NCBI RefSeq assembly: GCF_037031285.1
Contig: NZ_JAYEZO010000001.1
Coordinates: forward strand, 1,302,001 to 1,366,000
DNA: 64,000 nt
Origin: Halobellus sp. LT62
GTDB lineage: Archaea; Halobacteriota; Halobacteria; Halobacteriales; Haloferacaceae
Reading direction: 5' to 3'
In this document: positions 48,435-52,701 of the stretch, piece by piece
Position numbering within the stretch: position 1 is the first letter of the stretch
Layout of the letters: every line of letters begins with the position of its first letter
The notes under the pieces: model-generated
The model's database searches: none
Seen by the model: only the letters and a program-made list of their open reading frames with translations
Told to the model about the DNA's origin: nothing
Made by a program: the position numbers and the translations under genes

Positions 48435-48520
48435 GTCGATCGAGAACCCTCACCGCCGGGTCGACCGCGACCGGGGAACCGTCATCGCCACGTCGACGTC
48501 AATCGAGAACCGTCATCGCC
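48435..48520. repeat. Three imperfect copies of a ~31-bp unit overlapping the IMPase 3' end
   Basis: The core GAACCSTCAYCGCC occurs at 48444-48457, 48476-48489 (as part of GGAACCGTCATCGCC) and 48507-48520, periods 32 and 31 bp. The third copy encodes the last residues of the inositol-phosphatase-like protein; the other two are downstream of its stop. Confidence 0.8.
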
Positions 48521-49347
48521 GCCTCGACGAGTCGGTCACACGTCTCGCGGTCCGTCGCCGCCACGTAGAGGCCGTCGATCCCCTTCGCGTCGGTATCGCT
48601 CGTGCGCTCTTCGAGGCCCGTTCCGCCCTCCTCGACGTCGAAGACTCTGTGGACGACGCCGCTCTCCTCGGCGAGCAGCGCGCCCGCGTACTGCTCGTAG
48701 ACGTCGGGTCGGTAGGCGACGAGCCCCTCGATCGATCCGCGCGCGAGCAGCCCCCAGTCGACGCAGGGCGACCACGTGTTGATGACGCGCTTACAGCGAT
48801 CCTCGAGAGCATCTTCTAACCCTTCGGCTTGCTCTCGATACGCCTCGTCGCGGAGCGCCGGGAGGCCGACGACGAACGAGACGGTTCCGTGCGGGAGCGA
48901 TCGGCCGTTCTCGGCGACGAGCGGGTCGCCGTCGATCGTCGCTCCGCCGCCCCGCCGCGCGAGATACAGCGAGTCTGGGAGGGGTTCGTAGACCGCCGAC
49001 ACGAGCGGGTCGCCGTCGTCGAGGACGCACGCCGCCGCCGCGAAAAGCGGGATGTCGGCGGCGAAGTTGTTCGTCCCGTCGAGCGGGTCGACGACCCACT
49101 CGTAGCGATGTTCGCCGTCGCGACCGTATTCCTCGCTGTGAACCGCGTGCTCGGGGAAGGCCTCTCGAATTACCCCCAGCGCGCGCTCCTCGGCGGCTCG
49201 GTCCGCGGCCGTCTTCACGTCATCGATGCCGTACTCCGCCTCGACCGCGTCGCCGCGGAACGCATCCGCGAGGTAGTCGCCGCTGGCCCGGACGGCTCGG
49301 GCGGCCACAGCCTCCAAGAGCGGGCGGTCCACCGATCGATCGCTCAT
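48499..49347 (-). CDS. Inositol monophosphatase-family phosphatase
   Basis: 282 residues. Metal-binding motifs of the Li+-sensitive phosphatase superfamily are visible: HSEEYG (Glu), WVVDPLDGTNNFAADIPLFA (D-P-L-D-G-T), and STWSPCVDWGLLARGSIEGLVAY for the third site region (the usual WD appears as VDWG). Archaeal homologues act as inositol-1-phosphatase and/or fructose-1,6-bisphosphatase; the dual activity cannot be told from sequence. Its last codons belong to a repeat that continues downstream. Confidence 0.9.
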   Translation of the reverse strand: MSDRSVDRPLLEAVAARAVRASGDYLADAFRGDAVEAEYGIDDVKTAADRAAEERALGVIREAFPEHAVHSEEYGRDGEHRYEWVVDPLDGTNNFAADIPLFAAAACVLDDGDPLVSAVYEPLPDSLYLARRGGGATIDGDPLVAENGRSLPHGTVSFVVGLPALRDEAYREQAEGLEDALEDRCKRVINTWSPCVDWGLLARGSIEGLVAYRPDVYEQYAGALLAEESGVVHRVFDVEEGGTGLEERTSDTDAKGIDGLYVAATDRETCDRLVEAAMTVLD

Positions 49348-50206: not shown

Positions 50207-50246
50207 AAAATCAATGACTCAGTGATTCACAGATTCACTGATTGTC
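50207..50246. repeat. 8-bp repeat array A (5 units) at the ParA-partner stop codon
   Basis: Units of period 8 start at 50207, 50215, 50223, 50231 and 50239: TGACTCAG, TGATTCAC, AGATTCAC and relatives. The array runs through the stop codon of the small partner gene (50235-50237). Its left flank (TTGAATTCCAAAAATCA) closely resembles that of array C near 51741. Confidence 0.85.
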
Positions 50247-50672
50247 GTCTTGCATCGCGATTTCGCGAATTTTCGCTTTCGTTTCCTCTCGGTGCTCATC
50301 GAACGCGACCTCGAAAATCGCGCGGTAGAAGTGCTTGTTCTTCTCCAGCGTCACGTTTTCGCGCTTCAACTGCTTTTTCAGGCGCGTGAAAGCGATCTCG
50401 ATGTCTTCGCTCTGTTCGGGCTCGACGTATATCGTCGCCGGATCCCAATCTTCGCGGATGTTCAGCGGTTCGTCCTCCGGCTCTCGGTCCGGATCCGACG
50501 CGTCGCCGTCGGTCGCGGGCGCGTCTTCCGGCCCATTCGATTGCGTAGACGTCTCGCCTGCGTCGGCGTTTTGCTCTTCGGACTCTCGCGCTGTCGTTCG
50601 ATTCGCGGCTGATTCCGCTTCGTCGACTTCATCAGCGGGATCCTCGAACCGCTCGTCCATTCCTCGGGGCAT
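50235..50672 (-). CDS. Small ParA partner, predicted ribbon-helix-helix DNA-binding protein
   Basis: 145 residues. Residues 1-~68 are Asp/Glu/Ser/Thr-rich and probably disordered. The C-terminal part reads as beta strand (ATIYVEPEQ), helix A (SEDIEIAFTRLKKQLKREN), helix B (KNKHFYRAIFEVAFDEHREE). That order and spacing fit a ribbon-helix-helix domain such as omega, ParG or CopG, though no signature motif proves it. It begins one base before the parA stop ends (TGATG), so it is coupled to parA. By position it replaces ParB as centromere-binding protein. An 8-bp repeat array overlaps its stop. Confidence 0.7.
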   Translation of the reverse strand: MPRGMDERFEDPADEVDEAESAANRTTARESEEQNADAGETSTQSNGPEDAPATDGDASDPDREPEDEPLNIREDWDPATIYVEPEQSEDIEIAFTRLKKQLKRENVTLEKNKHFYRAIFEVAFDEHREETKAKIREIAMQDDNQ

Positions 50673-51583
50673 CAGACCTTCGCCTCCGTTCTGCCGAAGG
50701 CGCGTTCCATCGTCGCGGCGATTTCGACGAAGAGGTCGCGCTCTACGTCCTGATCGTTCGCGTCTTCCCACTCGAAGATGTCGCGCCCGTTGTCCCACGC
50801 GCGCTGTATCGCGACCCGCATCGGGAGCTTGAAAATCGGTGCCATCGAGGCGAACGACTCGGTGAACACGGTCTCGAACTTCCGCGATTGGCCGTCGTCG
50901 CGGTACATATTCGCGAGCAGTCCCACGATCGCGATCTCGATTCCTTGGTTCTCCTCTATCGATTCGAGCTGATCCCACAGATCGTCTAACGCGTCTCGCG
51001 ACGTCGCTTGGGTTTGTGCCGCCAAGAACGCGTTCTGCGCCGCGATGAACGCCGCGTCGGTCAGGACCGACAGATCGGGAGGGCAATCGATCAGGACGAA
51101 ATCGTACTCGTAGCCGTCCTCGACCAAGTCTTCGAGCGCGGATTTCAGCGAGAGGCGAGCGTTCGCGTCGTCCATCCAGTCCCGAGCGAGACCCATATCT
51201 TTGTGGCTCGGGACCAGATCGAAGTTCAGGTGCTCGTACTCGTCGGCTTCGACGACGATCTCCGAGAGCCTCGTATCGTGCGTGCGCGGGTTGTCGACGA
51301 GCACATCGAGTAGGTTCGCCTCGTCGGTGACGAGGACGTTCGGCAGCTCGTTTTTCGGATTCGACGAATCGGTGTCGTCGCCCGGTCCCAGTCCGAGCCC
51401 CTTCGTCATATCCGCCTGCGGGTCCATATCGATCGCGAGGACGTCGTGGCCCCGGGTGGCCAAGGCCGCCGCACTGTTGATCGTCCCGGTCGTCTTCCCA
51501 GTCCCCCCCTTCTGGTTGCCGAAAGCGACAGTCGGGATTCCGGTCGACGGCGTGACGCCCCATCCGACAGGTAGTTCCGTCAT
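50672..51583 (-). CDS. parA: ParA-family partition ATPase
   Basis: 303 residues. Deviant Walker A NQKGGTGKTT at residues 23-32 with signature Lys25 and Lys30; Walker A' DMDPQADMTKGLG; Walker B DFVLIDCPPDLSVLTDAAF; later IAIVGLLANMYRDD. There is no long N-terminal HTH domain, so it is a small ParA (type Ib/Soj-like) and cannot self-regulate through its own DNA-binding domain. ParA ATPases move DNA over the nucleoid when stimulated by a centromere-bound partner. The partner gene overlaps it downstream. The TATA-like box about 28 bp before the ATG is covered by an 8-bp repeat array. Confidence 0.95.
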   Translation of the reverse strand: MTELPVGWGVTPSTGIPTVAFGNQKGGTGKTTGTINSAAALATRGHDVLAIDMDPQADMTKGLGLGPGDDTDSSNPKNELPNVLVTDEANLLDVLVDNPRTHDTRLSEIVVEADEYEHLNFDLVPSHKDMGLARDWMDDANARLSLKSALEDLVEDGYEYDFVLIDCPPDLSVLTDAAFIAAQNAFLAAQTQATSRDALDDLWDQLESIEENQGIEIAIVGLLANMYRDDGQSRKFETVFTESFASMAPIFKLPMRVAIQRAWDNGRDIFEWEDANDQDVERDLFVEIAATMERAFGRTEAKV

Positions 51584-51586
51584 CGA

Positions 51587-51618
51587 TCGATCATTGAGTC
51601 AGTGATTCATAAATCCAT
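51587..51618. repeat. 8-bp repeat array B (4 units) over the parA promoter
   Basis: Units start at 51587, 51595, 51603 and 51611 (TCGATCAT, TGAGTCAG, TGATTCAT, AAATCCAT). On the minus strand the last two form ATTTATGAATC, the likely parA TATA region, whose centre is about 28 bp before the ATG at 51583. A protein bound to the repeats would repress parA. Confidence 0.8.
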
Positions 51619-51741
51619 AGTGAACTTTCGGTGAGAGATCCGATCACTAATTCGGTTACTCGTACGTTTTTGGCGCTGTCGGTGGTATATACCGTCAATT
51701 AGCCGTGGTAGATGTCATCGAGTTCCGTCCGATGGTCTCTT

Positions 51742-51773
51742 TGAATCCAAAAATCATTGAATCATTGAAATTC
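51742..51773. repeat. 8-bp repeat array C (4 units)
   Basis: Units at 51742, 51750, 51758 and 51766 (TGAATCCA, AAAATCAT, TGAATCAT, TGAAATTC). Together with its left flank it resembles array A. Confidence 0.75.
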
Positions 51774-51807
51774 GTATCGGGCTTAAGCGGGCGTTTTAGA
51801 CGAGTTA

Positions 51808-51935
51808 TGACTCATTGAGTCAGTATATCAATGAGTCATAGAGGCTTTGAATCACGGACTCAGTGGATCAGTGAGTTATTGATTCTTTGAATCACTGATG
51901 AATTGATTCAAAGAATCTCTGAATACTTGAGTCCA
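51808..51935. repeat. 8-bp repeat array D, 16 in-phase units (candidate centromere)
   Basis: Sixteen consecutive 8-bp units start at every eighth base from 51808 to 51928 with no phase break. Consensus TGANTCAN; clear units include TGACTCAT, TGAGTCAG, TGAATCAC, TGATTCAA. Two units (51824, 51840) are degenerate. The array includes a perfect 15-nt palindrome (TGACTCATTGAGTCA, 51808-51822) and a 14-bp perfect inverted repeat (51881-51894 / 51904-51917). It lies 225 bp upstream of the parA start. Confidence 0.9.
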
Positions 51936-52127
51936 GATCTCTCTGACTACTTGATCGTCGAGCAGTTTGCAGACGTTCACGTGTCTTCACACGGCGGCAT
52001 ACGATCGGGCGGGGACTCATCGGAGTTTCGTACCTATCTCTCGATTCTCGCGATACCGTCCGACGAGAGTTCGATGGAGAGCGGACGGACAGTAGTCCCT
52101 ACCAGTTGCAGGCGCTGTATACGCCGA

Positions 52128-52159
52128 TATCTCACGGAATCAATGAATCAGTGATTCAA
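52128..52159. repeat. 8-bp repeat array E (4 units)
   Basis: Units at 52128, 52136, 52144 and 52152 (TATCTCAC, GGAATCAA, TGAATCAG, TGATTCAA). It is the outermost array, 545 bp from the parA start. Confidence 0.75.
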
Positions 52160-52542: not shown

Positions 52543-52620
52543 AGTAGCGTGTGCAACCCATTGCTCATCCGATCGCACGCTGTCGTGCGATCGGGTGAGT
52601 GAAGACTTGCACACGCTACT
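52543..52620. repeat. 78-bp nested inverted repeat (MITE-like element or structured RNA)
   Basis: Perfect 14-bp terminal arms (AGTAGCGTGTGCAA at 52543-52556; TTGCACACGCTACT at 52607-52620) enclose a second stem of 16 bp with a single T-G mismatch (52564-52579 / 52584-52599, loop CTGT). Seven unpaired bases lie on each side between the stems. No flanking target-site duplication is obvious. No transposase gene is in the window. Confidence 0.8.
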
Positions 52621-52701
52621 GTAACGGGGTCGGTGCCCCGGCGACACGTCCGCTACCCTCGGTAATGCGATGGCAGTCTAGCCGTATACAGTGAGGGCTA
52701 C

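Follow-up and report, generated by a model that had tools for sequence, protein, structure and literature searches.

A ParA-partner gene pair with contiguous 8-bp repeats in Halobellus sp. LT62: a probable ParABS-type partition module of haloarchaea

The window, a stretch of 64,000 nucleotides from Halobellus sp. LT62, contains a parA gene and a small partner gene that are joined at an ATG (position 50672) and surrounded by five arrays of a repeat with the consensus TGANTCAN and a step of 8 bp. The features of the locus, in window coordinates, were as follows:

50207..50246, no strand: downstream array of 5 units, 2 perfect and the others weaker; overlaps the partner stop codon
50235..50672, minus strand: partner gene, 145 aa, putative centromere-binding protein; homologues always directly downstream of parA
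50238..50474, minus strand: C-terminal domain of the partner, ribbon-helix-helix (RHH)-like, candidate DNA-binding domain; a strand and three helices in an AF2 model
50646..50672, minus strand: N-terminal box of the partner, MPRGMDERF; invariant in 23 sequences
50672..51583, minus strand: parA, 303 aa, Soj/ParA-type ATPase; deviant Walker A motif KGGTGKTT; Pfam AAA_31, 3.8e-34
51587..51618, no strand: putative operator array immediately before the parA start, 2 perfect units and weaker ones; 3 units conserved in homologues
51607..51614, minus strand: TATA-like element ATTTATGA, spanning roughly -31 to -24 relative to the parA ATG; overlaps the first operator unit
51742..51773, no strand: weak array of 4 units matching 5, 4, 6, and 3 of 6 fixed bases; one perfect
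51808..51935, no strand: main array of 16 contiguous units in a single 8-bp phase, putative centromere core
52128..52159, no strand: distal array of 4 units, 2 perfect and the others weaker

The ATPase resembles that of ParABS systems in its deviant Walker A motif, its AAA_31 match, and its nearest solved structures: Soj (1wcv) matched at 1.4e-18 and SegA (7dut), much more weakly, at 1.7e-7. Across about 40 haloarchaeal homologues, ParA is 82-89% identical. Also as in ParABS, the partner gene is adjacent, lying directly 3' of parA in all intact homologues. Homologues of the partner are 55-67% identical and are annotated as 'hypothetical' or 'uncharacterized' almost everywhere. In an alignment of 23 partner sequences, the N-terminal box is invariant and the C-terminal domain almost so, and the acidic linker varies. 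From its sequence, the MPRGMDERF box, with Arg3 and Arg8, is a candidate ParA-contact motif, and a related box, G-[MI]-x-x-[RN]-[FY], is found at the N-terminus of partners from distant subfamilies. The box of the subfamily B partner contains no arginine; an arginine-finger mechanism therefore cannot be general.

The fold of the partner was predicted using AF2. The full-length protein gave a pLDDT of 52 with a low-confidence linker. Modelled from a 35-sequence alignment, the C-terminal domain was predicted confidently (pLDDT 84, pTM 0.64) as an extended segment or strand followed by helices at residues 19-37, 45-59, and 62-77. In hhalign comparisons with RHH profiles, which included five RHH control sequences, this domain scored 16.4 vs a maximum of 12.4 in 60 shuffles; the alignment is of low probability and covers about 20 columns, spanning the strand and the first helix (helix A). 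One partner relative weakly matched RHH_5 (E 0.098). A Foldseek search of the C-terminal domain against the PDB and viral models returned no significant structure, RHH or other, and searches of the partner against Pfam, NCBIfam, and PDB sequences yielded sub-threshold noise only, such as Ribosomal_S21. The suggestion in the initial annotation that the partner looks like an RHH protein is compatible with the strand-helix-helix model and with a profile score above that of the shuffles, and finds no backing from Foldseek or Pfam. Because Foldseek gave no significant match, we do not present the RHH fold as demonstrated; on the model, it is plausible.

Rescoring of the repeats reproduced the five arrays of the initial annotation, with their coordinates and 8-bp phase, and the 16 units without a phase break at 51808-51935. 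Specifically, six units of this main array match all six fixed bases, five match 5/6, and five match 3-4/6. The proposed total of at least 33 units was generous since the array at 51742-51773 is weak and many units match poorly: of the 33, 13 are perfect, 21 match at least five of the six fixed bases, and the remaining 12, which are degenerate, match three or four. Taken alone, 51742-51773 falls below the array threshold used; the same region holds a clearer array in several homologues, and the array downstream of the partner is also present in most of them. A chance origin was rejected: no arrays arose in first-order Markov simulations of the window (30 runs over 64 kb), and no comparable ones in 500 local-composition simulations. 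The two-unit pattern had 8 matches vs 0.04 expected. A scan of the whole 3.2-Mb genome for this pattern gave four perfect matches, all of them at the par locus, and six sites with one mismatch, of which four are there as well; strong copies of the repeat are thus restricted to the surroundings of the pair.

At the start of parA, three repeat units overlap the TATA-like box in a position that is conserved over 45 non-redundant loci, for which the consensus ahead of the gene is GATTTATGAgTCAtTGAtTCAATGATcgaact-ATG. The distance of the box from the ATG is that expected for a leaderless haloarchaeal transcript. The TATA-like element is presumably the parA promoter and the three units probably its operator; by acting there, the partner would repress its own operon. 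As had been proposed, one array covers this putative promoter: 51587-51618 spans the element at 51607-51614.

We searched 148 genomes of the family for partner homologues. Besides Halobellus sp. LT62, 22 genomes encode a close homologue (60-68% identity), for the most part on contigs of plasmid size, and arrays lie beside the pair in 21 of the 22. In the exception, L002, two units are left; it was dropped as an example of a partner without arrays because parA there is truncated. Using a three-unit pattern, whose reversed control gave 0 matches, strong arrays were detected in 21/23 genomes with the partner (Halobellus sp. LT62 included) vs 2/125 without it (Fisher p 3.7e-21, a value that ignores phylogeny). 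In G099, arrays are present, yet the strict three-unit pattern failed. Among 37 loci of named haloarchaea, all 34 intact pairs carry 10-48 units; in the three loci that lack such a pair, 0-2 are present. Damage to the pair goes with loss or reduction of the arrays: L095 has a truncated parA and 2 units, and L120 has two broken genes and 0 units. The counts of the genome survey and of the named loci are not fully independent because the homologues are related and the genomes partly the same. The expectation that parA, partner, and arrays recur together was confirmed, in that every intact pair examined has arrays; homologues consistently lacking them were not encountered.

The two strong arrays in genomes that lack the partner are orphan TGANTCAN arrays on chromosomes. 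The array in G005 (L129 6015-6403) adjoins a parA start that reads ATG ACC GAG TCG TAG; since this reading frame stops after four codons, we regard the array as a relic, and G005 was set aside as a counter-example. No parA or partner gene lies near the array in G109 (L130 7085-7271), whose history is harder to read. Separately, a 305-kb contig encodes two subfamily-A partners, each with arrays (G101:C2:193102-193536 and 271099-271533). This contig would be dicentric and may represent a cointegrate, an assembly issue, or a tolerated duplication.

More distant relatives, whose partners are ~20-30% identical and whose ParAs are ~30% identical, keep the two-gene layout and differ in their repeats. 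De novo period detection returned 8 bp in subfamily A and 9 bp in nearly all others. Specifically, the repeats are 8-bp TGANTCAN in subfamily A, 9-bp NNGAAACGA in subfamily B, and other 9-bp motifs in further subfamilies. The type A system was found on 27 plasmids, and relatives of type B on 70. The presence of the repeats with the gene pair, and their co-variation with it, are as for the cis site of ParABS systems, which they putatively represent. In the 9-bp subfamilies, units occur upstream of parA and within the DNA coding for the partner linker, where one unit equals three codons. Coding repeats alone could be caused by peptide repeats. In subfamily B, the same motif also occurs in noncoding upstream DNA, which argues for selection on the DNA itself; the case for such selection appears less clear in the other 9-bp subfamilies.

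A second, distant pair belonging to subfamily B lies on the same contig of Halobellus sp. LT62, 216 kb from the window locus (G000:C1:1135389-1136587; L041 7231-8591), with 9-bp GAAACGANN arrays upstream of and inside the partner gene. The halovirus ChaoS9 (L140 1342-2737) encodes ChaoS9_260 (ParA) followed by ChaoS9_255, a relative of the partner, again with 9-bp GAAACGANN arrays. In this pair and in the halovirus pair of L139 (about 1430-2500), the repeats form the 5' end of parA and the partner linker, and the annotation is limited to ParA and an uncharacterized protein. ChaoS9 and PhiH1 were published as encoding ParA and an 'uncharacterized protein'; the parts of these publications considered here report neither a partner role nor repeats for ParA (PMC6471424, PMC6210493).

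What the sequences show is the layout of the locus, the co-occurrence of arrays and pair, the joint variation of repeat and partner, and signs of conservation and selection; beyond this, we consider the locus very probably a ParABS-type partition module whose partner binds and coats the arrays. The arrays are probably both centromere and operator, as first proposed for this ParA/partner operon; their presence with every intact pair supports that proposal. We infer that binding, ATPase stimulation, repression, and segregation would proceed as follows. ParA would be the ATP-driven motor and the partner a DNA-binding adaptor whose C-terminal domain, probably an RHH dimer, would bind the TGANTCA units. 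Partners aligned next to one another on the 8-bp arrays would form the partition complex, from which the flexible acidic linker would present the N-terminal box to ParA and thereby stimulate ATP hydrolysis. Coating of the long arrays would activate ParA, and the three-unit promoter array would mainly serve repression. The system would be mainly plasmid-borne, and its copy on the chromosome of Halobellus sp. LT62 would have been retained by vertical descent.

The par locus of this strain is chromosomal and has a macro-domain gene on one side and a conserved block of genes on the other. Its place and orientation are the same in Halobellus captivus; seven other Halobellus-genus genomes have no par locus at that place. 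The ParAs of the two species pair in a quick tree (SH-aLRT 96). Vertical inheritance of the chromosomal locus is the simplest reading; an alternative origin would be two insertions at one hot spot. The locus could also be the functionless remnant of a plasmid that had integrated, a reading that we regard as unlikely. Its chromosomal position, the relic arrays in the related chromosomes of G005 and G109, and the 12/33 units of poor match would fit such a relic, but both frames are open, and dN/dS relative to the H. captivus orthologues is 0.09 for parA (dS 0.81) and 0.39 for the partner, whose C-terminal domain is nearly unchanged. Similarly, the 27 bp ahead of the parA ATG are almost identical in the two species, and the TGANTCAN units are kept although the spacers between them are unalignable. 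Low dN/dS and the retention of arrays despite spacer turnover point to maintained function rather than decay.

Two other functions of the arrays were weighed. They could be iterons of a replication origin, recognised by an initiator of the Orc1/Cdc6 or RepH type; parA would then be a mere neighbour. On plasmids, an orc1/cdc6 gene is often 2-10 kb from par, and a small extra TGANTCAN array adjoins such a gene in one genome (G027:C2:27202-27235; L131 5203-5234); on this plasmid, some 165 kb separate the array from the par locus. However, the nearest orc gene is 30-100 kb away on some plasmids, and the nearest found in the Halobellus sp. LT62 genome is about 269 kb away. Based on these distances, origin iterons were judged very unlikely. 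The dependence of repeat type on partner subfamily and the fixed distance of the operator units from parA also argue against them. Alternatively, the arrays could be a large autoregulatory operator only, with partition occurring at another, unseen site. Almost all homologues have a three-unit array over the parA promoter, which is consistent with this reading, but the majority of units, often 20-40 in number, are sited 100-600 bp upstream or after the partner gene and exceed what an operator needs. The contiguous heptads of pSM19035 are bound by omega dimers, and ParA activation requires four or more contiguous repeats (PMC9499535); by this measure, the main arrays suffice and the operator falls short. 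An exclusively regulatory role is thus quite improbable, and a partition module with arrays serving as centromere and operator remains our preferred reading.

Among known systems, delta-omega-parS of pSM19035 (Firmicutes) similarly combines ParA and a small partner with repeats over the par promoters that are both centromere and operator. The pSM19035 repeat is a 7-bp non-palindromic WATCACW in both orientations, whereas the haloarchaeal unit is an 8-bp palindromic TGANTCA in one phase; the 9-bp direct units of the distant relatives are likewise unlike the heptads. Periods among the subfamilies are 8 or 9 bp only, never 7, and Pfam and PDB sequence searches revealed no kinship of the partner to omega. 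The description 'omega/delta-like' therefore applies to the logic of the arrangement and does not extend to membership, given the step of 8 or 9, the palindromic unit, the Soj-like ParA, and the unrelated partner.

The likeness to ParF-ParG-parH of TP228 (Enterobacteria) is at least as close. ParG combines an RHH domain with flexible tails that bear arginine finger-like motifs, and its centromere parH consists of degenerate, interspaced tetramer boxes with AT-rich spacers, the operator being separate (PMC7308502); degenerate units and an operator apart from the main arrays are a likeness. A flexible N-terminal tail and a C-terminal DNA-binding domain, both candidates in the haloarchaeal partner, would be common to the two; the tail likened to that of ParG consists of the low-confidence linker and the invariant N-terminal box, a predicted contact. 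In contrast, the boxes differ, the haloarchaeal ParA is larger and Soj-like, and RHH is only plausible for the partner, which had no match to ParG in PDB sequence searches. SegA-SegB of Sulfolobales likewise joins a ParA-type ATPase to a small DNA-binding protein of archaea, the RHH protein SegB, and has sites directly upstream of the first gene; the chromosomal copy in Halobellus is a further likeness. The sites of SegB are 13 bp long (TCTAGASTCTAGA) and dispersed across the chromosome (PMC12284271). By the published definition of these TCTAGA-type sites, the repeats tied to the haloarchaeal pair differ, being contiguous TGANTCAN units at the par locus only. Moreover, bacterial Soj rather than SegA is the closer relative of the haloarchaeal ParA, and searches of all PDB chains gave no match between the partner and SegB. 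Because step, palindromic unit, partner kinship, and site layout differ, we did not file the system in omega/delta or SegAB.

The locus would thus be a variant of ParABS, a known kind; what appears new, on sequence grounds, is the candidate repeat centromere and its partner. No earlier description of such a system was found in the open-access literature, consistent with the initial annotation, whose author knew of no haloarchaeal centromere of this form. The type apparently has not been described before, and it occurs on dozens of haloarchaeal plasmids. A 2016 review listed the archaeal plasmid centromere as an open question; a candidate and its probable binding protein can now be named. Carriers among named strains include Haloarcula marismortui pNG600 (9-bp type) and Natrinema pellirubrum pNATPE01 (8-bp type). 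Since the candidate is present in named strains and ChaoS9, plasmid and provirus inheritance in polyploid archaea is directly testable.

More tentatively, these systems may form a haloarchaea-wide partition superfamily in which the sequence and step (8 or 9 bp) of the repeat co-evolve with the partner. Most 9-bp subfamilies would write part of their centromere in the codons of the disordered linker, as TET/SET-type peptide repeats with three codons per unit. At least one lineage, that of the two Halobellus species, would hold a stable chromosomal locus that may help to segregate or organise the polyploid chromosome. We consider this extended scheme possible, with the balance somewhat against it.

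Two further repeats lie near the locus. Beyond the distal array, at 52546-52621, is a long inverted repeat (TAGCGTGTGCAA...TTGCACACGCTA) that looks like a terminal-repeat element or a strong hairpin. Finally, three copies of a 31-bp tandem repeat at 48435-48529 overlap the gene of an inositol-monophosphatase-like protein at its 3' end.
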